Assembly (NCBI GenBank): GCA_019218415.1
Contig: JAHUUL010000001.1
Coordinates: 744,001 to 808,000, forward strand
Direction of reading: 5' to 3'
DNA length: 64,000 nucleotides
Origin: Dermabacteraceae bacterium TAE3-ERU27
Lineage (GTDB): Bacteria; Actinomycetota; Actinomycetes; Actinomycetales; Dermabacteraceae
The number at the start of each line of letters is the position of its first letter. The stretch's first letter is position 1. A program made the position numbers and the translations under genes. The notes beneath the pieces were generated by a model. It worked only from the letters and a program-made list of their open reading frames with translations, did not search any database and was not told the DNA's origin. Shown here piece after piece: positions 11,941 to 59,164 of this stretch.

Positions 11941-14304
11941 TTAGTGCGATTTCTTCAGCCCCGGCACCAGGTCGGGGTCGCCCACCTGCGCGAACTCTGC
12001 CTCCAGCTTCTTATCGAGCTTGGTGGCGAAGAGACCGGACGGAGCGAAGAACTTGGATTCCTGGTACGGGTCCTCGGAGTTCGTTTCGTCCTTGGTGGCG
12101 AGGGTGCGGTAAACCCTGATCGCCGCCGCGCCGATCACGAACGCCACCGCGAGCACGAACACTACCGACAGCGTGCCCTGGATCAGGGTGTTGCGGATGA
12201 TCGCGTTGGTAACCTCGATTTCGGCCGGGTCGGTCAGGTTCGGCAGCAGGGCCTTTGCGTCACACCACTGCTGGAAGTAGCCGATGCGAGGGTCGGTCGA
12301 GAAGATCTTCTGGTAGGAAGCCGTGAACGTAACTGCCGTATCGAACAGGAACGGCAGCAGCGGGATCCATACCCACTTCACGTAGCCCTTGCGCACCACC
12401 ATCACGGTCACCAGCAGCAGCGCCACGGCGGCGATCAGCTGGTTGGCGATACCGAACAGCGGGTAGAGGGTCTTGATGCCGCCGCGCGGGTCGGTCACGC
12501 CCATCATCAGCAGCGAACCCCAGGTGGCCACCACCAGGGCGGTGGCGAGCCAGGCGCCCGCCTTCCAGGAGGGGTCGCGGAACTTCGGCACCAGGTTGCC
12601 CAGCGCGTCGGATACCTGGAAGCGGGCCACGCGGGTCACCGCGTCTACCGCCGACAGGATGAACAGCGCCTCGAACATGATGGCGAAGTGGTACCAGAAG
12701 CCCATCATGGCGCGGCCGCCACCGATCTGGTGCAGGATGTGCGCCATGCCGACCGCCAGGGTCGGTGCGCCGCCGGTGCGGGAAACGACGGACGGTTCGC
12801 CCACGTCGTTAGCGAGCTGGCGGTAGGCCTCGGCGTCGGTGAACACCTTCGGCGCGCCCGTTTCGTCCCAGGACTCCCAGACAACGCTGATCTTGTTGCC
12901 GTGCGTGTCGGTCACTCCCAGGTTCTTCATCGCCACGGCCGTGATCTCTTCCCGGTCGGTGACGGTCTGCGTAACGGAGGTGCCCGCCAGGCTGTCGATC
13001 GAGGCGGAGGGGGTGTTCATGCCGAAGTAGATGCCGGGGTTGAGCGACACCGCCGCCGCCAGAGCCATGATCGCCACGAACGATTCCATCAGCATGCCGC
13101 CGTAGCCGATCATGCGCACGTGGGTTTCCTTCTGCACCATCTTGGGGGTAGTACCGGAAGAAACCATGGCGTGCATACCGGAGAGGGCGCCGCAGGCGAT
13201 GGTGATGAAGAGGAACGGGAACAGGGTGCCCGCGAACACGGGGCCTTCGGTGTTGCTCGCGAACTCGGTGACGGCGGGCATTTCCGCGAGCGGCTGCACC
13301 AGCACGATGCCGAGCGCCAGCACGACGATGGTGCCGACCTTCATGAAGGTGGAAAGGTAGTCACGTGGGGTAAGCAGCACCCACACCGGCAGCACGGCGG
13401 CCAGGAAACCGTAGATAACCATGGCCCACACCAGCGTTTCGGGCGAAACGTGCAGGTAGGTCTGGCCGAAATCGGATTCGCCGACCCAGCGGCCCGCGAT
13501 GATGACCAACATCAGCAGGGCGAAACCGGCAATCGAAACCTGCGTGATCTTGCCGGGCTGCACGTAACGCAGCCACAGGCCCATGCCGACGGCGATCGGG
13601 ATGGTCATGCCTACGGAGAACACGCCCCAGGGGGATTCTGCCAGGGCGTTTACGCAAACCATGGCCAGCACGGCCAGCACGATCATCAGCATTACCAGCA
13701 CAACCACGGTAGCTACGGTGCCGCCGATCTTGCCGATCTCGTCGGTCGCCATCTGGCCGAGGGAACGGCCGCCGCGCCGCATGGAGAAGAACAGCACCAG
13801 CATGTCCTGCACCGCGCCGGCGACGCAGACGCCCAGGATGATCCAGAGCGTGCCGGGCAGGTAACCCATCTGGGCCGCGAGGACGGGGCCGACCAGGGGG
13901 CCAGCACCTGCGATGGCGGCGAAGTGGTGGCCGTAAAGCACCACGCGGTTGGTCGGGTCGAAGTCTTTTCCGTTATTGATGCGCTCCGCCGGGGTGGCGT
14001 TCGCATCGTCGGGGCGCATGATCGTGCGCTGAATGTAGAGCGCGTAGAAGCGGTAGGCGATGGCGTAGGTGCAGACGGCCGTGACCACGAACCAGATCGT
14101 GTTCACTTCCTCGCCGCGCACCACGGCCAGCATCGTCCAGCCGATGGCACCCACGATGCTGATCGCCACCCAGAGGGCGATCTTCGCCGGGGTCCACTTA
14201 TTTCGCGGTTTTACCCCGACCGGAATGCCGTCCTTGTTTCTGATAATTAGTTCTTCCTCTTCCTCTGTGTAAGAGGGGAGGGCGGGCGCGGCGCTCCGCG
14301 TCAT
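11941..14304 (-). CDS. cstA: CstA-family carbon starvation / pyruvate transporter
   Basis: A 787-residue polytopic membrane protein, with about 16-18 hydrophobic segments, of the CstA family (peptide or pyruvate uptake; E. coli CstA and BtsT are proton-coupled pyruvate transporters). Family landmarks are RFYALYIQRTIMRPDD, NRVVLYGHHFAAIAGAGPLVGPVLAAQMGYLPGTLWI and SSGTTPKMV. The start is ATG 14304, because AAGGAG lies at 14312-14317; a longer frame upstream has no support. ybdD follows. A sigma-70-like promoter lies at 14369-14396, inside a large inverted repeat. Confidence 0.93.
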   Translation of the reverse strand: MTRSAAPALPSYTEEEEELIIRNKDGIPVGVKPRNKWTPAKIALWVAISIVGAIGWTMLAVVRGEEVNTIWFVVTAVCTYAIAYRFYALYIQRTIMRPDDANATPAERINNGKDFDPTNRVVLYGHHFAAIAGAGPLVGPVLAAQMGYLPGTLWIILGVCVAGAVQDMLVLFFSMRRGGRSLGQMATDEIGKIGGTVATVVVLVMLMIVLAVLAMVCVNALAESPWGVFSVGMTIPIAVGMGLWLRYVQPGKITQVSIAGFALLMLVIIAGRWVGESDFGQTYLHVSPETLVWAMVIYGFLAAVLPVWVLLTPRDYLSTFMKVGTIVVLALGIVLVQPLAEMPAVTEFASNTEGPVFAGTLFPFLFITIACGALSGMHAMVSSGTTPKMVQKETHVRMIGYGGMLMESFVAIMALAAAVSLNPGIYFGMNTPSASIDSLAGTSVTQTVTDREEITAVAMKNLGVTDTHGNKISVVWESWDETGAPKVFTDAEAYRQLANDVGEPSVVSRTGGAPTLAVGMAHILHQIGGGRAMMGFWYHFAIMFEALFILSAVDAVTRVARFQVSDALGNLVPKFRDPSWKAGAWLATALVVATWGSLLMMGVTDPRGGIKTLYPLFGIANQLIAAVALLLVTVMVVRKGYVKWVWIPLLPFLFDTAVTFTASYQKIFSTDPRIGYFQQWCDAKALLPNLTDPAEIEVTNAIIRNTLIQGTLSVVFVLAVAFVIGAAAIRVYRTLATKDETNSEDPYQESKFFAPSGLFATKLDKKLEAEFAQVGDPDLVPGLKKSH

Positions 14305-51159: not shown

Positions 51160-51656
51160 ATGGAAACCGCAATCACGCCGCCAGTCATCACCGTTTCTCA
51201 CGCCCCATGTCCGGAAACCGAGCCTCCGCCCCGTCTTTGCCGCATCTCATCGCTGAGCCGCAAAGAAACGGGTCTGCTCGGTGAATGCCTTGCCGTCCGC
51301 TACCTGTGGGGCCTGGGCTGGCAGATACTGCAAAACCAATTACCGTGATGGTAGGGGAGAGATCGACATTGTGGCACGGGACGGTGAAACGCTCGTGTTC
51401 GTGTAGGTCAAGATCCGCTGTAGCGTTCTCACGGACCCACCGTAGGAGGTGGTTACGGAGGCGAAACTGCGCAGCATTCGCAGGGTTTGTGGGGCGTTCT
51501 GTGAAGAGTTTTGCCGCGTTACCGAGATAGCCGGATAGACGTAATCGCCCTGATGCTTGCCCCCAGTTCTGGCTCGTACACGGTAGTGTCGCGTGGGATA
51601 ACGCGGAATGGTTGGAACGTATCCGCGTCAGCCACTTGCGGGGAGTCGGTGCATGA
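51160..51656 (+). pseudogene. yraN: Decayed YraN family gene
   Basis: Pieces of a YraN (UPF0102) nuclease-fold protein lie in successive frames: KETGLLGECLAVRYLWGLGWQIL, then after a one-base shift near 51337 NYRDGRGEIDIVARDGETLVFV, a TAG (51404-51406) where the conserved Glu of EVK should be, a second in-frame TAG (51443-51445), then RIDVIALMLAP in another frame, and finally AEWLERIRVSHLRGVGA ending in TGA at 51654-51656. That TGA overlaps the ATG of the comM remnant, as in intact relatives. At least three frameshifts and two nonsense changes show that it is inactive. Confidence 0.85.
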
Positions 51657-51980
51657 GCATCGGCCGCACCGCAAGCGCATATCTTCCTCGGGTCTGGTTC
51701 AGAGTCAGGGTGTTTGCGGACCAGACTGACATAGACCACCTGGGGCGCTATAGGTCAGTACGTACCCGTCAGCCTCGAAGCTGTGGCGGATGTCAGGTAG
51801 AGCAATGGGAGCATTACGTCGTGGCGAAACTGGGCCGAAGTGGCTGGGCATTCAGGCGGTATAGTGTGAAAGCACGGGCATCCTTGCCGCCCGGAGAAGC
51901 ATCGGATAGTCAATACTCAGATGAAGACGGTGCGGGGCTCTTTCTAGCGGTCGATTAACTGGCTGCTCAGTGTTCCATGG
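51653..51980 (+). pseudogene. comM: 5' remnant of comM (YifB)
   Basis: The start MSIGRTASAYL matches the invariant N-terminus of the ComM/YifB Mg-chelatase-like AAA+ helicase, and later pieces in shifting frames resemble VRVFADQTDI..., PVSLEAVADVR*SNG and SVKARASLPPG (for the PDASL...DRVR..NSG and VNLSPASLPK.G regions). Frameshifts and stops break the frame. The 3' part of comM lies 6.5 kb away, on the far side of the restriction island. Alignment beyond about 51980 cannot be made by eye. Confidence 0.7.
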
Positions 51981-52840
51981 GCTGAATCGAAGTTACAGAA
52001 CCCTAGCTGGTAGGAATATGCGTATGTTTGTGTTTGGCCGTACCGCATGATTCCACCTGCCGCCACGGAATTTAGTGGCGCCTCGCCCGCATGCCACCGC
52101 AGTGGCATAGATCGAACAGATGAATCCGATCATCGAGTCAAGCATCGAACCAGTCAGCATTTCGGGGGCTCTTTGGGGTTGCTATTACCAGAACCGGGCT
52201 CGCCCTCAGGACGGTATGTGCCTGCTCCTGCCACTCCCGGTATTAGGATCCCTCTGCTATGTCTAAATACCTCCGCTACTTTCGCCTCGCCGACCACGAC
52301 AAGTGTTACATCACCACTAGTAGAGCTGACCTTGGTAATGACGGTTCTTGGCGGGGTGCCGGGATCGCAACATTGGCCCACCGGTCTCACCGGGAACGAC
52401 GGTCGCCACCGACCTCTACGGAGCTGGGGTCTGCCCATATGGCACGTGGGGCGAGGCGACACGGTAGCCAGTGACCAAGTAGTGCCGTCGACTGTAGCCG
52501 TAAGCTACCGGATAGCGATGCTCGCACCGGAGCCGTAGTGGGGGCGGCAGGCGACTCTTGGGGGAAAGCGGCCGTTCATGAGACAGTTGGGAGAGACCAC
52601 GATGGTTGGTTGAGCTCGTTATGCTACCCGCCACGGGTACTTCTCGCCCCTCGTCAGGCGCAGCATATTAGCAATGTCAGTGCTCGTCGGTAGCATTGGA
52701 CACGCCACGGTAGTACAACTTATGACGCGCCTGAGCGCGGAGGAGAACCAGCACAGAATGACAACGCTCACGGCTAGGTGGTCGCGCGACCTCAGCACTC
52801 CCGCACATAACCTCACTTGCCGGTGCCGGAAGCGCGCCGC
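51981..52840 (+). other. Non-coding or decayed stretch, about 860 bases
   Basis: No frame here has a recognisable domain or ribosome site. Several frames of 60-160 codons are open by chance of composition, none with conserved motifs. It may hold the decayed middle of comM on its left and the left end of the island on its right. No tRNA, integrase or clear repeat is seen. Confidence 0.5.
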
Positions 52841-54538
52841 ATGAGTGCTCTCATCGATAAGGTCTCTCGCACCCACGATGCAGACGACTTACTTGAGGAA
52901 GCCGAGTGCGCCTACGGGCAGGAGGAGAAGACGCGAGGCGCCATTTTCACAAAGCCTGCTGTGGTTGACTTCATGCTGGACTTGGTTGGATACACGGTCG
53001 ACAAGCCGCTGCATCGTATGCGGCTCCTGGAGCCCTCGTTCGGTGGGGGTCGGTTCGTGCTCCATGCTGTAACCCGACTGATCGAGGCCTGGAAGCGAGA
53101 CGGCGGAATGGAGCCTTTGGAGCTTGGCGATTGTCTGCGTGCAATCGAGGTCGATACGGTGACGTTTGAGAGATTCGGCCAGACCCTGCAGCAGCATCTT
53201 ACGCGGAATGGCTTTTCGGTTGCGGATTCGCAGTCGCTGGCCGATTCATGGCTCCGCCATGAGGACTATCTTCTCGGAGGACACCTCGGTGAATTCGACT
53301 TCGTGATCGGAAATCCTCCGTACGTACGTCAGGAGTTGGTACCGAATGATCTGCTCAAGATCTACCGCGTAAAGTACTCTACGATGGTCGGCCGCGCGGA
53401 CCTCTATGTTGCGTTCATGGAACGCTCTCTAGACCTCCTCTCCGAGACCGGTATGCTCAGCTTTATTTGTGCCGATGCATGGACCCGTAACGACTATGGA
53501 CGAGGCATCCGTGAGAAGATCGCGAATAACTACGCCCTCACGCACTACGTCGATATGTACGGTCTTGATGCATTTGAGGTGCAGGTCGGGGCCTACCCAT
53601 CTATCACCGTGATGACGCGTGGTAAGTCTGTCCGCACACGCATCGCACATGCGCGAAGCGTCGACTCCCAGTACTTCCGAGCTCTCTCCTCTGACCTGCT
53701 TGCTGAGCAGCCGGGAACTTCAGAAGTGCTGGCGTTGGACGCCGTTCGTGGTTCTGCTCCATGGCTCTTGTCTGTTAGTCCGACTGTCTCGGTGATCACG
53801 CAGCTTGAAGCGCACTTCCCGACTTTGGTCGAGGCAGGTTGTCGAGTCGGTATTGGAGTCGCGACAGGGGCCGATAAGGCGTTCATCGGTGCCTTTGACG
53901 CCCTCGATGTCGAACCAGATCGGAAGCTCCCCCTTGCGACGAGCAAGGACCTGCTGGGAGGCGTACTGACCTGGGGTGGCAAGGGTGTGGTCAATCCGTG
54001 GCGTGACGAGGGGGGACTTGTAGACCTTGCTGATTACCCCCGTCTCGCCGACTACTTGGGGTCGTTTCGCGAGCAACTTAGCCGCAGGCACACCGCCAAG
54101 GGGGATACCGAGCGAAAGTGGTACAAGACGATCGACAGGATCGCGCCGAGCCTCACGTATGAGCCAAAGCTCCTGATCCCCGATATCAAGGGCAACGGTG
54201 ATGCGATCGCTTACGATCCCGGTAGGTTGTACCCGCACCACAACTTGTATTTTATCACGTCGACCACATGGGATCTTCGTGCGCTTCAGGCACTGTTACG
54301 TAGCGGTATCGCTCATCTCTTTGTTGATGCGTACTCTGTGAAGATCGGCGGAGGATACCTGCGCTTCCAGGCTCAGAACCTGAAGCGAATTCGAGTGCCG
54401 CACTGGAACGGCATCAGTGCGGAAGACCAGGCGCGGATGCGCCGGGCTGGCGAGGCGGGAGAAAAGCTATCTGCCGTACTGCTGGAGCGGATTTATCAAC
54501 TTACGCCGGGGACGTTGGCGTTCTTGGAGGAGAGCTAA
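52841..54538 (+). CDS. Type II adenine-specific DNA methyltransferase (M.PaeR7I/XhoI type)
   Basis: A 565-residue N6-adenine methyltransferase of the gamma layout: SAM-binding motif I as [11 protein letters not shown] (62-72), catalytic motif IV NPPY at 158-161 ([14 protein letters not shown]), and a long C-terminal target-recognition domain. Start is ATG 52841, 8 bases after GGAAG. It ends 2 bases before the PaeR7I-family endonuclease gene, so it should protect the same site, CTCGAG if the specificity is kept. GC content and codon use are below those of the flanking core genes. Confidence 0.88.
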
Positions 54539-54540
54539 CT

Positions 54541-55281
54541 ATGGGTATTGATCTTGCAAACTTTGAAGAGAGCACGTCGCACGCTGTACGGACATTTTGG
54601 GATACACGCGCTGCAGCCGTGGAGCGGCAGAAGCTCAATGGTGTTGTCGATCAGGGTGAACGTGCTGGCGTCACGAGCGGCAAGAACATGGACGGATTTG
54701 TAACGCTTCTTGCTGACCTCGTTGCCGCTAACGGCTTGAGAGATGCCGAGCTCTACATGACGCGAGGAGTTAACACACTGCCTGGTTACTTCCGCCCAAC
54801 CAAGGACTGGGATCTGCTTGTCATGCATCGGGGTATGCTGATCGCCGCCATCGAGTTGAAGAGCCAGGTGGGCCCGTCGTTCGGGAACAACTTCAACAAC
54901 CGCACGGAGGAGGCAATCGGCTCTGCGGTAGACCTCTGGACTGCGTTCCGAGAGGGGGCGCTCGGTGAGCAGCCAGCCCCGTTCGTGGGATGGTTGATTC
55001 ATGTTGAAGATGCCCCGAGCTCGACTCGCTCCGTACGAGTTGCAGAGCCTCACTTCGCGGTCTTCCCGGAACTGCGTAACGCGTCGTACCTGCAGCGCTA
55101 CGACCACCTCTGCCGTCGACTTGTGCTGGAGAAACACTACACCGAAGCCGCTTTGATCGTGTCGACTCGTAAAGGGGGACTCTGTGGAGAGTACGGCAAC
55201 CTCAGTGAGTCAACAAGCTTCAAGCGATTTGTCGTAGCGTTTGCTGCGCATATCGCTCAGGAGGCCGCGTTGCTTCGTTGA
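54541..55281 (+). CDS. PaeR7I/XhoI-family type II restriction endonuclease
   Basis: A 246-residue nuclease of the PaeR7I (XhoI isoschizomer) family. The block [14 protein letters not shown]...[21 protein letters not shown] is the family hallmark; D91, E105 and K107 give the D...ExK catalytic pattern. The N-terminal FWDTRAAA and TSGKNMDGF pieces also match. Expected target CTCGAG is inference from family. GGAGG lies 8-12 bases before the ATG, inside the end of the methyltransferase gene. No controller protein gene is visible. Confidence 0.92.
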
Positions 55282-55388
55282 GGCTGCTCAAGGTGCTATT
55301 GCGAGGCGAACTCGTCGCGTATAGTGGGCGGTGAGGTGGTGATGCCTAAGCTAGACACGACCCGCGCGCCGCGACACGTTACCACAGG

Positions 55389-55410
55389 ACAAGTGCGATC
55401 ATGCGCTTGT
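55389..55410 (+). terminator. Hairpin after the restriction gene
   Basis: ACAAGTGC (55389-55396) pairs with GCGCTTGT (55403-55410) with one G-T pair, loop GATCAT. It lies 108 bases after the endonuclease stop and may end the R-M transcript. The surrounding 260 bases hold no ORF of note until the short leader frame. Confidence 0.35.
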
Positions 55411-55543
55411 GGTGATGCGGCACCAGTGAACTCGCCGCTCGTGGCCGCACCGATATCTCTATGCAAGAGAGATCGATGTGCTCGTGGCATCGCGACTTAA
55501 AAGCTGTAGCACTCCAGGTATTTGCTTTGAAGGAGGCCGTCGA

Positions 55544-55594
55544 GTGAGCCCACGCTCCACTTACTGGAGGCGACAGCGATCACTCAGTACGTAA
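55544..55594 (+). CDS. Possible 16-residue leader peptide
   Basis: A GTG-started frame MSPRSTYWRRQRSLST lies 7 bases after an AAGGAGG, the strongest ribosome binding site in the neighbourhood, and ends 32 bases before the helicase start. It is rich in Arg and Ser. It could be a regulatory leader whose translation affects the downstream gene. It could also be chance. Confidence 0.35.
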   Translation: MSPRSTYWRRQRSLST

Positions 55595-55626
55595 GCAACG
55601 CACTTCTTACCGGAAGGATGTTCAGT

Positions 55627-58398
55627 ATGGCCACGGTAGAGCAGCAGGTCCTGGACTCGAGCAACGCGATCGACCAGAATATCTCGGTAATCACGACCGA
55701 CCGCGGATTCTTGTCTCAGAACCTGCTGCAATACCTGCGCCATCTAGTCGAGGGCTTGGTCGTATATGCGTACGTTCCAGATCGGACAGTAACGTACAAC
55801 TATCAGACGCAATTTAATGATGCCAGGAGCGCAGTGAATGGCGATGCCCGTTATAGACTACTGACTCGCTTCCACAGCCTGCTACAGATCAGCGTCTCAC
55901 ACTACACCCTCGACCGGGACCCCTCTGAGCGCCTGATGCTCAAGTATTACGAGTACCTGCTACGCACGCGCGACCTCGCGAAGCAGCACCTCGGCCTAGA
56001 CATCCTCCGGAATCTCGAGCAGTTCCCACTTCATGATGATCCGTCACTCCGCACGTACTACGAGAAGATCGCTGATCGGATCAATGCATCAAAGGACCGA
56101 TCGCTGACCGGTAAGACCGAGCGCTACTACATCAACACCTCTCGACCATTTTTCATTGGCGATCAAATCTACTACGAGGTCACATTCAGCCTCTCCCACA
56201 ACCGGACGAGCAAGTTCGACCGGATCATCGGCTTCACCCACATCGATGTGAGCGACTACTACGCTGCGAAACTCGAGCTTGCGAACGAATCAATCAATGT
56301 ACTCGGTCAGGAGATGCCGATCATCATCGTGCGTGACTGGTCGGTGTCGATACGTCCGTGCGAGTTCGACAACTTTGCTCGACTCCTCGGCCAGCAGACT
56401 AAGGTACAGTCAGGTCATGCCGAATACCGAAACCTGATGAAGTATCTAACGGTGACACGCCACAGTCTGCTTGACCTCATTGACTCATCAGACGCAGTGT
56501 ACAGCCAGGTGAAGGCGTCGACTCTCGCGAATGCCCAGCGAACGCCGCTGATCTTCCCCGCACTGGACGCGGCGAGGGCAATTATCCAGCAGAACGGTCC
56601 AGGCACCCGACTCCTTCGCTACCTGATGCTCCGGATGAATAACCAAATCTTGAAGGCGCAGTACGATGCTGGTCGGTGTACGCAGCTCTCCTCGCTGAAC
56701 GTATCGAGTGGGTGCCGGCCGTTCGATACCATGCCGTTCTGTACGTCACCTCGGAAACACAACCCGAGGTTTGCAGACCTTGCGGCGAGCATCGATTCAT
56801 CGACCAGGAAACACGAGCTACTTGCGCGACGGGTACGCGTCAACGTCGAGCAGCGCGGCGTAATCTACACCCCCGAATGTAACCTCGAAGATCTCGGGGA
56901 TATCGACGACCTGATCAGGCGCTACAACGACTATCTTCCGCCGATAAAGCGGCATGCCCCGCGCAGACTCCAACGCGCCAACGGCCACGTATTCATCACA
57001 GGGTACGAGGACGGTGTGGTAGAGATCATCGAGCAGCTCAAAAAGATTGCCTCGAGTGGTATCGAGGGCTACGCGGAAGATGTCGATGCATGGCTCTATG
57101 AGAATGCAAAGCTCCCAGACGGTAATCCTCAGAAGGTTGACGATGAGATCAAGGCTGATGCACTGCGAAAGCTCTTCGCCCACTCGAAGGTCGCGCTCAT
57201 TTACGGCGCAGCTGGTACGGGCAAGTCCACGATGGTCAACCACATTGCGCATTACTTCGAAAGCGAGCGGAAGCTCTTCTTAGCACACACCAATCCGGCC
57301 GTTGACAACCTGAAGCGCCGTGTCAACGCTCCCAACGCATACTTCAGCACGATCTCAAAGCATGTGCAGGGTGATTGGAACACATCGGGTCATTTCGACG
57401 TCGTAGTCATCGATGAATGCAGTACTGTCAGCAACGCTGCGTTCCTTAAGGTGCTCTCCAACACCGACTTCGATTTGCTGGTACTGGTGGGTGATGTCTA
57501 TCAGATCGAGTCCATCGAGTTCGGGAACTGGTTTGGCTCAATTCGCTCGTACATCCCGCAAGAGTCAGTACACGAACTGACACACCCGTTCCGTACGACA
57601 GACGAGGCGCTCTTGACCCTCTGGGATCGGGTGCGCGACCTTGATGACCGGATCGAGGAATCGCTATCGAAGAATGGGTACTCCAAGGAGCTAGGTGAGT
57701 CGCTCTTCACACGACACAGTACCGATGAGATCGTCCTCTGCCTAAATTACGACGGCTTGTACGGGATCAATAACGTTAACCGCTTCCGCCAAGCAAGCAA
57801 CCCGAGCCCGCCCTATATCTGGGGCGATACTGCTTACAAGGTTGGCGATCCGGTACTCTTCAATGAAACGGATCGCTTCCGTCCCCTGATTTTCAACAAC
57901 ATGAAGGGAACTATCACCGGGATCAGCCAGGAGCGCGGGAAGATCACCTTCGACGTCGATCTCGGGCTCGGGCACGACGTGACATCGATGGATGCGATGT
58001 ACTCGAATGTCCGTGCCATCGGTGGCTCCGTGGTTCAGTTCGACGTCATCGAGCGCCCAAACACAGACGAGGACGATGATTCCACGACGACCATCGTGCC
58101 ATTCCAAATCGCATATGCGGTGTCGATTCACAAGGCGCAGGGCCTCGAGTTCGACTCGGTGAAGGTCGTCATTACGGAAGCCAATGAAGAGAACGTCTCG
58201 CATAGTATCTTCTACACAGCGATTACGCGGGCTAGGAAGCATCTCGAGATCTACTGGACGCCCGACACTCAGAATCGGATCCTCAGTCGAATGGAAATTC
58301 GCGAGAACAAAAAGGACGAGAACCTGCTTCAGCAGCGTCGCGGAGTGGTTCCCGTAGCCAAGGTGCCCAAACGCCAGAAGGTGCGTCAGCGACCGTAA
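55627..58398 (+). CDS. Superfamily 1 helicase with a large unrecognised N-terminal domain
   Basis: A 923-residue protein. Start is ATG 55627, 9 bases after GGAAGG; an earlier ATG abuts that site. The C-terminal third is a clear SF1 helicase: Walker A GAAGTGKST near residue 527, VIDECST near 594, LVGDVYQIESIEFG near 621, HPFRTTDEALL near 653, SIHKAQGLEFDSV near 833 and FYTAITRARKHL near 861, the pattern of RecD/Upf1-like helicases. Residues 1 to about 510 match nothing I know; they contain INTSRPFFIGDQIYYEVTF and a Cys-rich GCRPFDTMPFC region. Placed after a restriction system, a defence role is plausible but unproven. Confidence 0.75.
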   Translation: MATVEQQVLDSSNAIDQNISVITTDRGFLSQNLLQYLRHLVEGLVVYAYVPDRTVTYNYQTQFNDARSAVNGDARYRLLTRFHSLLQISVSHYTLDRDPSERLMLKYYEYLLRTRDLAKQHLGLDILRNLEQFPLHDDPSLRTYYEKIADRINASKDRSLTGKTERYYINTSRPFFIGDQIYYEVTFSLSHNRTSKFDRIIGFTHIDVSDYYAAKLELANESINVLGQEMPIIIVRDWSVSIRPCEFDNFARLLGQQTKVQSGHAEYRNLMKYLTVTRHSLLDLIDSSDAVYSQVKASTLANAQRTPLIFPALDAARAIIQQNGPGTRLLRYLMLRMNNQILKAQYDAGRCTQLSSLNVSSGCRPFDTMPFCTSPRKHNPRFADLAASIDSSTRKHELLARRVRVNVEQRGVIYTPECNLEDLGDIDDLIRRYNDYLPPIKRHAPRRLQRANGHVFITGYEDGVVEIIEQLKKIASSGIEGYAEDVDAWLYENAKLPDGNPQKVDDEIKADALRKLFAHSKVALIYGAAGTGKSTMVNHIAHYFESERKLFLAHTNPAVDNLKRRVNAPNAYFSTISKHVQGDWNTSGHFDVVVIDECSTVSNAAFLKVLSNTDFDLLVLVGDVYQIESIEFGNWFGSIRSYIPQESVHELTHPFRTTDEALLTLWDRVRDLDDRIEESLSKNGYSKELGESLFTRHSTDEIVLCLNYDGLYGINNVNRFRQASNPSPPYIWGDTAYKVGDPVLFNETDRFRPLIFNNMKGTITGISQERGKITFDVDLGLGHDVTSMDAMYSNVRAIGGSVVQFDVIERPNTDEDDDSTTTIVPFQIAYAVSIHKAQGLEFDSVKVVITEANEENVSHSIFYTAITRARKHLEIYWTPDTQNRILSRMEIRENKKDENLLQQRRGVVPVAKVPKRQKVRQRP

Positions 58399-58540
58399 CT
58401 GTCGTCTAGATTAGATCGACGTTTGGTGCTCGCGTTTGCACCGGATGAGCATGATCTGGCCAGGGACACAAGAATCACGCTGCCCGTCACCGGACGACAT
58501 CTCGCCGCGTAGAGTAGTTTGAAGTCCCTGTACGATGGAT

Positions 58541-59164
58541 TTGTCCGTAGGGGTGCGCTTTACATCTGGCGACGAGGTCCCGGAGTTTCCCCGTTTACTG
58601 GACTCCCTCCGCCAACCGTTAGAAGACGGCCATATCACCCTGCACCGCTCCCGGAACACCGTCACCTACCCGGCCCGCTTCCAGCTGGTGCTAGCCGCGA
58701 ACCCGTGCCCGTGCGGGCTTAACGTCGGGGCACGCAACGAATGCACCTGCAGCCCACGCGAACGCACACGCTACTTCCAACGCATATCCGGCCCCGTCAT
58801 GGACCGAATAGATGTTTACTGCCGGGTGCGGGCCGTAGACCTGCGCACCGCCTCCCCGGCCGGAACCAGCACCGCGGAGATGGCTCGGCAAGTCACCGCT
58901 ACCCGCGAGCGCCAGGCAGAGCGGTACAGAAACCACCCCTTCACACTCAACTCGCAGGTTCCCGGGCCGCTACTGCGCAGCGAGTTCGCACCCGAAAAAG
59001 GAGAAGCGAAAGAACTCACGGACGCCCTAATGAACGGCCGCATCTCCATGCGCGGCTACGACCGCACCGCCCGGCTCGCCTGGACCGTCGCCGACCTGGA
59101 CGGGGCCGAACGCCCCACCCGCGAACACATCGGCACCGCCCTGTTCCTGAGAGGCCGCGCGTGA
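58541..59164 (+). pseudogene. comM: 3' remnant of comM (YifB)
   Basis: The last 200 or so codons of ComM remain in frame: DEVPEFPRLLDSLRQPLEDG (Walker B neighbourhood), ARFQLVLAANPCPCG, ECTCSPRERTRYFQRISGPVMDRIDVY and the C-terminal LAWTVADLDG. The SAM-free AAA+ core with Walker A is missing, replaced by the island. A few extra residues disrupt the GVLF.DE motif at the junction. It still overlaps the dprA start (GTGA), so it may be translated, but it cannot hydrolyse ATP. Confidence 0.88.

Follow-up and report, generated by a model that had tools for sequence, protein, structure and literature searches.

PDC-S53 in a Dermabacteraceae genome: an already catalogued candidate anti-phage helicase family with a RecD2-type motor and a predicted OB fold

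PADLOC lists PDC-S53 (PDLC05035; phage defence candidate, single gene 53) in PADLOC-DB 2023 under an entry without description. Such PADLOC candidates (PDCs) derive from a 'guilt-by-embedding' survey, and most await tests (PMC12988326). A literature search for PDC-S53, or for experimental tests of such a helicase, found none; the family is already catalogued and apparently uncharacterised, a candidate single-gene anti-phage family. The other described proteins closest to it are the SF1B helicase RecD2 (TIGR01448; structure 3gpl), the phage family PHROG 325 ('Dda-like helicase') and the defence SF1 helicases GajB, Nhi and AbiO. One member of PDC-S53 lies in the window, by which we mean the whole 64,000-nucleotide stretch of Dermabacteraceae bacterium TAE3-ERU27 that was analysed:

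55627–58398, + strand: PDC-S53 family helicase gene, 923 codons (open reading frame call, PADLOC profile, homologue alignment and dN/dS)
55612–55617, + strand: GGAAGG, a likely ribosome-binding site that homologues also keep

The PDC-S53 profile matches the encoded protein over residues 4–910 (profile positions 1–896 of 900) with 1291 bits and an E-value of 0, and the architectures of the window protein and of the family show no difference. A sequence-only reading had found that residues 1–510 match no family it recognised and had seen in the gene the best candidate for something new. The first statement holds for Pfam, whose matches to the window protein are helicase-type families confined to residues 505–880, but not for PADLOC, where a known defence family closely matches the N-terminal half as well, a result that the reading itself had named as grounds for giving up its proposal. 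Since the PDC-S53 match is full length and the N-terminal half is common to the whole family, the supposedly unknown half is not novel; PADLOC-DB 2023 lists the exact family, and the window gene, though promising as a defence candidate, does not represent a new kind of protein.

The reading frame is intact, with candidate starts at 55618 and 55627 and its stop side at 58398. In an alignment of close homologues, ATG 55627 and the upstream GGAAGG are kept while the ATG at 55618 is absent; the start is therefore 55627, and the 923 residues originally read from it are right. Compared with four close homologues, the gene has a dN/dS of 0.13–0.14, indicating a maintained protein under purifying selection and not a chance reading frame, and the differences pile up at third codon positions. 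Its GC content is 55%, against 66–67% in the native flanks.

The predicted structure has a mean pLDDT of 82.6 for the whole protein and 84.7 for residues 1–496. The following parts can be distinguished:

55627–56091, + strand: residues 1–155, all-helical N-terminal domain (predicted structure)
56095–56358, + strand: residues 157–244, predicted OB fold including the INTSRPFFIGDQIYYEVTF block (structure search, Z 6.5–7.9)
56359–57138, + strand: residues 245–504, helical linker and pre-core region including GCRPFDTMPFC (predicted structure, structure search)
57139–58266, + strand: residues 505–880, SF1B helicase core of RecD2/Pif1 type, AAA_30 and UvrD_C_2 (Pfam, structure search)
57205–57231, + strand: Walker A GAAGTGKST, residues 527–535 (homologue alignment, motif scan)
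57412–57423, + strand: Walker B DECS, residues 596–599 (homologue alignment, motif scan)

Pfam and NCBIfam see the motor alone, and the nearest profiles are those of the RecD2, RecD and TraA DNA helicases, all far under their cut-offs (96.8 bits for RecD2, below its curated equivalog cut-off of 500). The best match of the whole model is RecD2 3gpl, with a Z-score of 24.0 and an rmsd of 4.4 Å over 474 residues, starting from residue 359. The ranking is headed by RecD2, TraI and RecD, with nsp13, Pif1 and UvrD behind them; matches to viral structures reflect the RecD motor. These comparisons point strongly to a RecD2-type SF1B fold for the motor. The SF1 motifs had been called complete, and indeed none is missing; they are invariant, or close to it, across 52 homologues, including GDVYQ (622–626), SIHKAQGLE (833–841) and YTAITRAR (863–870). 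The motor core and SF1B motifs are shared with RecD2, whereas residues 1–355 (the helical domain, the predicted OB fold and the helical linker) do not align to it. Ighmbp2 is also among the structural matches and, together with nsp13, would fit an RNA-directed helicase of the Upf1/nsp13 kind that blocks phage translation or transcription; given that DNA helicases lead both the structural ranking and the profile matches, we regard this as very improbable.

Similarity to GajB, Nhi and AbiO amounts to 34–39 bits in the helicase core and is limited to the motor. Gabija (GajAB) was rejected because no gene for a GajA OLD-type nuclease adjoins the helicase gene, whose neighbours are an XhoI-type restriction–modification (R-M) system and comM/dprA. 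The Nhi nickase-helicase was likewise rejected, its profile matching only residues 510–632 (38.8 bits) and its nuclease part finding no match.

The set of homologues numbers about 80 and spans Actinomycetota, Proteobacteria, Firmicutes and prophages; 52 of them were aligned over their full length. The N-terminal half is conserved throughout the set and, among the 52, is nearly as conserved as the whole protein, with 36–89% identity to the window. In a structure search with the N-terminal model, nearly all of the 50 best PDB matches fall on residues 157–244, a five-stranded barrel in the predicted structure, and are OB folds (Z 6.5–7.9). SSB leads, and PriB, RecO, MCM and LEF-3 are also among them. 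The OB domain dominates the matches listed, which include none for residues 1–155 and 245–355. Foldseek of the N-terminal half against PDB and viral models returned nothing below an E-value of 0.001. Because the best OB match, at Z 7.9, falls below 8, a range in which the tool warns of common arrangements, and has a Foldseek E-value of 0.2, the assignment of residues 157–244 as an OB fold is likely, not proven; the consistency of the matches is the main argument, and we consider the support moderate.

Two blocks of this half had been singled out as conserved-looking, and the 52 homologues bear this out for both. Block 169–187 (INTSRPFFIGDQIYYEVTF) makes up the first strands of the predicted barrel, adjoins the invariant Tyr168 and contains the invariant Glu184. 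The GCRPFDTMPFC block (residues 361–372), with Pro365, Phe366, Pro370 and Cys372 invariant, belongs to the part of the protein that, from about residue 359–400 on, aligns with the RecD2 and nsp13 segments preceding the motor core. A hidden nuclease in the N-terminus found no support: a Pfam search of the N-terminal halves of all 52 members gave nothing convincing and no nuclease family, and no convincing catalytic pattern was seen.

Upstream of the helicase gene the window contains:

52817–54538, + strand: type II adenine methyltransferase of the Eco57I/N6 type (profile match)
54541–55281, + strand: XhoI-family restriction endonuclease (profile match)
55342–55547, + strand: remnant of an upstream SLFN/AlbA_2 gene, previously taken for a leader (comparison with relatives)

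The helicase gene thus does lie beside a restriction system, as the sequence-only reading had stated. When these R-M genes were sought beside close homologues, they were common to none; they were therefore rejected as co-evolved partners and are probably a separate insertion. Window positions 51771–52140 show 66–71% identity to the DNA lying immediately next to the helicase unit in homologue loci L005 and L006. The location of the XhoI-like R-M genes between these positions and the helicase gene suggests a later insertion or rearrangement.

The supposed leader of the gene's own is instead the wreck of an SLFN/AlbA_2 gene that is intact in relatives: an internal deletion of the 468-codon gene has fused its first ~13 codons to its 3′ end. 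The intact SLFN_AlbA_2 gene is found ~75 bp upstream of the helicase gene in L003, L004 and L111; in the latter two loci, which have a type I R-M operon, it comes after the large HsdR-type gene of that operon. L002, L005 and L006, like the window, have no intact copy. That the gene stands alone is accordingly true in so far as the family has no constant partner (a Firmicutes prophage clade excepted), and untrue in so far as an upstream operon partner has been lost. Since the helicase outlived this partner, an autonomous function is supported.

The surroundings of the gene also bear on its origin:

51196–51508, + strand: yraN pseudogene, frameshifted, left edge of the island
55362–58577, + strand: segment common to the window and L002, L005 and L006, with 84–86% DNA identity, ending ...CTGGCGACGAGG
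58571–59164, + strand: comM/yifB (522 codons) without its 5′ part, which the island replaces; what is left starts at about codon 322

The PDC-S53 helicase gene has been horizontally acquired, and the family travels horizontally. Among 97 relatives searched (98 genomes including the window's own), only one other carries the gene, while L002, L005 and L006, from Corynebacterium, Propioniciclava and Bowdeniella, are 94–97% identical to one another in DNA over 3.5–4.5 kb. The window R-M genes lie outside the segment shared with these three loci; the stretch shared with L003 and L004 is shorter, reaching to 58401. With yraN a pseudogene and comM lacking its first ~320 codons, the yraN–comM–dprA cluster is broken. 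One further genome of the genus was searched, and it has no match to comM.

The junction of island and comM is at the Walker-B codons of comM. In L017 (25–13233) an element interrupts comM at these codons too; a large serine recombinase with Resolvase and Recombinase domains stands at its start and a PDC-S53 helicase at its end. The same right edge lies inside another gene in L005 (12890–12940), again at a Walker-B motif; judged by the sequence of its two parts, the interrupted gene is a putative MobF-type relaxase. An element with a large serine recombinase appears to insert into genes for P-loop ATPases, at the codons of the Walker-B motif (DEA). We found no recombinase in the examined region of the window island, which would seem to be a copy of an L017-type element that has decayed and been remodelled. 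The right ends of the window (58571–58577), L002, L005 and L006 have ...CTG(G/C)CGACGAGG in common.

Defence loci contain members of the PDC-S53 family more often than expected by chance, as the gene neighbourhoods of homologues show. In Frankia sp. QA3 (L047, 4940–19925) the helicase gene is embedded between HmaA and HmaB, followed by HmaC. Among 54 bacterial loci there is no constant neighbour and no neighbour family occurs in more than six; actinobacterial and proteobacterial clades lack a constant partner, and the most recurrent neighbours are type I R-M subunits. Type I R-M genes are nearby in L004, L013, L019, L032, L044 and L111, and some PDC-S53 genes are the last gene of a type I R-M operon. 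Type IIG genes are found near the helicase gene in L014 and L038, type III genes in L010 and type IV/HEC-06-like genes in L026. Of 40 loci, 5 have an N6_Mtase gene at a distance of up to 10 kb (0.38 expected, a 13-fold enrichment) and 7 have one at up to 20 kb (0.70 expected), the largest counts in 200,000 simulations being 5 and 6, respectively; 33 of the 40 loci have no N6 methylase within 20 kb. As the test uses a single marker and a null model of uniform placement, these figures understate other defence genes and ignore the clustering of R-M genes. Both architecture and neighbourhood fit the single-gene antiphage system that the architecture had been said to typify.

An ImmA/IrrE peptidase with an XRE-type regulator, or a shorter related reading frame, lies just upstream of the helicase gene in L008, L013, L020 and L109; these recurrent genes are possibly a regulator. 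In L032 (Mycobacterium arosiense), the reading frame at 12633–15824 matches the PADLOC profiles for a caspase and for a HamB-type helicase, and adjoins both the PDC-S53 helicase gene and type I R-M genes.

PHROG 325 matches the window protein including its N-terminal half (E-values of 2e-61 and 2.8e-16). The motor is shared, and residues 3–353 weakly so. The window protein scores only 209 bits, far below its PDC-S53 score, whereas the phi1605 protein reaches 608 bits, and the PHROG entry is a phage annotation only. Homologues occur in prophages and plasmids, one of them adjoining phage replication genes, and in two isolated phages; an alignment-based query of viral contigs retrieved 27 IMG/VR loci, a single-sequence query none. 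This distribution and the PHROG match would suit a selfish-element or repair helicase (Dda/RecD2-like) that aids replication, recombination or maintenance of its carrier elements and has defence neighbours merely because mobile elements gather in islands. However, in prophages the helicase gene forms a separate, oppositely oriented cassette by R-M or repressor genes, and chromosomal copies sit inside Hma and end type I R-M operons, so that we consider this explanation unlikely.

A conserved reading frame just upstream of the helicase gene characterizes a monophyletic clade of 17 Firmicutes prophage loci (L068, L069, L077–L088, L090, L094 and L095). It has 277–464 codons, lies 16–108 bp ahead of the helicase gene, matches no Pfam family and has the conserved C-terminus RNLYVKLHPD..G.FPYDAFIDDWDDGE; a small XRE-type reading frame is often found downstream of the helicase gene. 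Four partners were tested, and in each the first ~140 residues match LmuA of Lamassu (E-values of 3e-12 to 9e-27); the rest of the partner is unmatched, and the window has no such gene. The LmuA-like N-terminus suggests a sensor–effector version of PDC-S53. This partner, together with the SLFN_AlbA_2 gene directly upstream in three loci, raises the question of whether the helicase is generally a sensor of phage DNA intermediates that activates a separate effector: the LmuA-like protein in Firmicutes prophages, and in the window an SLFN/AlbA_2 protein since lost or acting in trans. Yet the window has only a wreck of the SLFN gene, and L002, L005 and L006 lack an intact one, while the helicase is under purifying selection; most homologues, moreover, have no constant neighbour. 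A sensor role of this kind is unlikely.

The window gene is real and probably defensive, and its family is already catalogued and uncharacterised. We find it moderately probable that PDC-S53 is a mobile anti-phage defence gene for an ATP-driven SF1B DNA translocase or helicase that carries a single-stranded-DNA-binding OB module. The N-terminal half would provide an OB module for binding single strands, set on a helical platform, and the protein would most likely load onto single-stranded or tailed DNA from phage replication or restriction cleavage. The motor would then strip, unwind or expose this DNA, with the result that the phage can no longer replicate or that nucleases of the host and of R-M systems destroy the DNA. 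By analogy with RecD2-type SF1B helicases, and from the defence context, we infer a 5′-to-3′ polarity, a single-stranded DNA substrate and an anti-phage outcome. The helicase may co-operate with neighbouring nucleases; apparently lacking a nuclease itself, it would need another effector.

It is also conceivable, if improbable, that PDC-S53 is a modular sensor, built of an OB and an SF1B part, which responds to phage replication or DNA damage and is re-used with different effectors. It would then be paired with an LmuA-type effector in one prophage clade and with SLFN/AlbA_2 in type I R-M operons, and would work alone in the window. The LmuA-like partner is the most interesting lead, a natural two-gene version that occurs outside the window. 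PDC-S53 is widespread in Actinomycetota, Proteobacteria, Firmicutes, prophages and plasmids and uncharacterised in the literature searched. The family now has a testable architecture (a predicted OB fold and an SF1B motor, no nuclease having been found), its members have been placed in Hma and type I R-M loci, and the question of whether it acts solo or with a partner has become directly testable.
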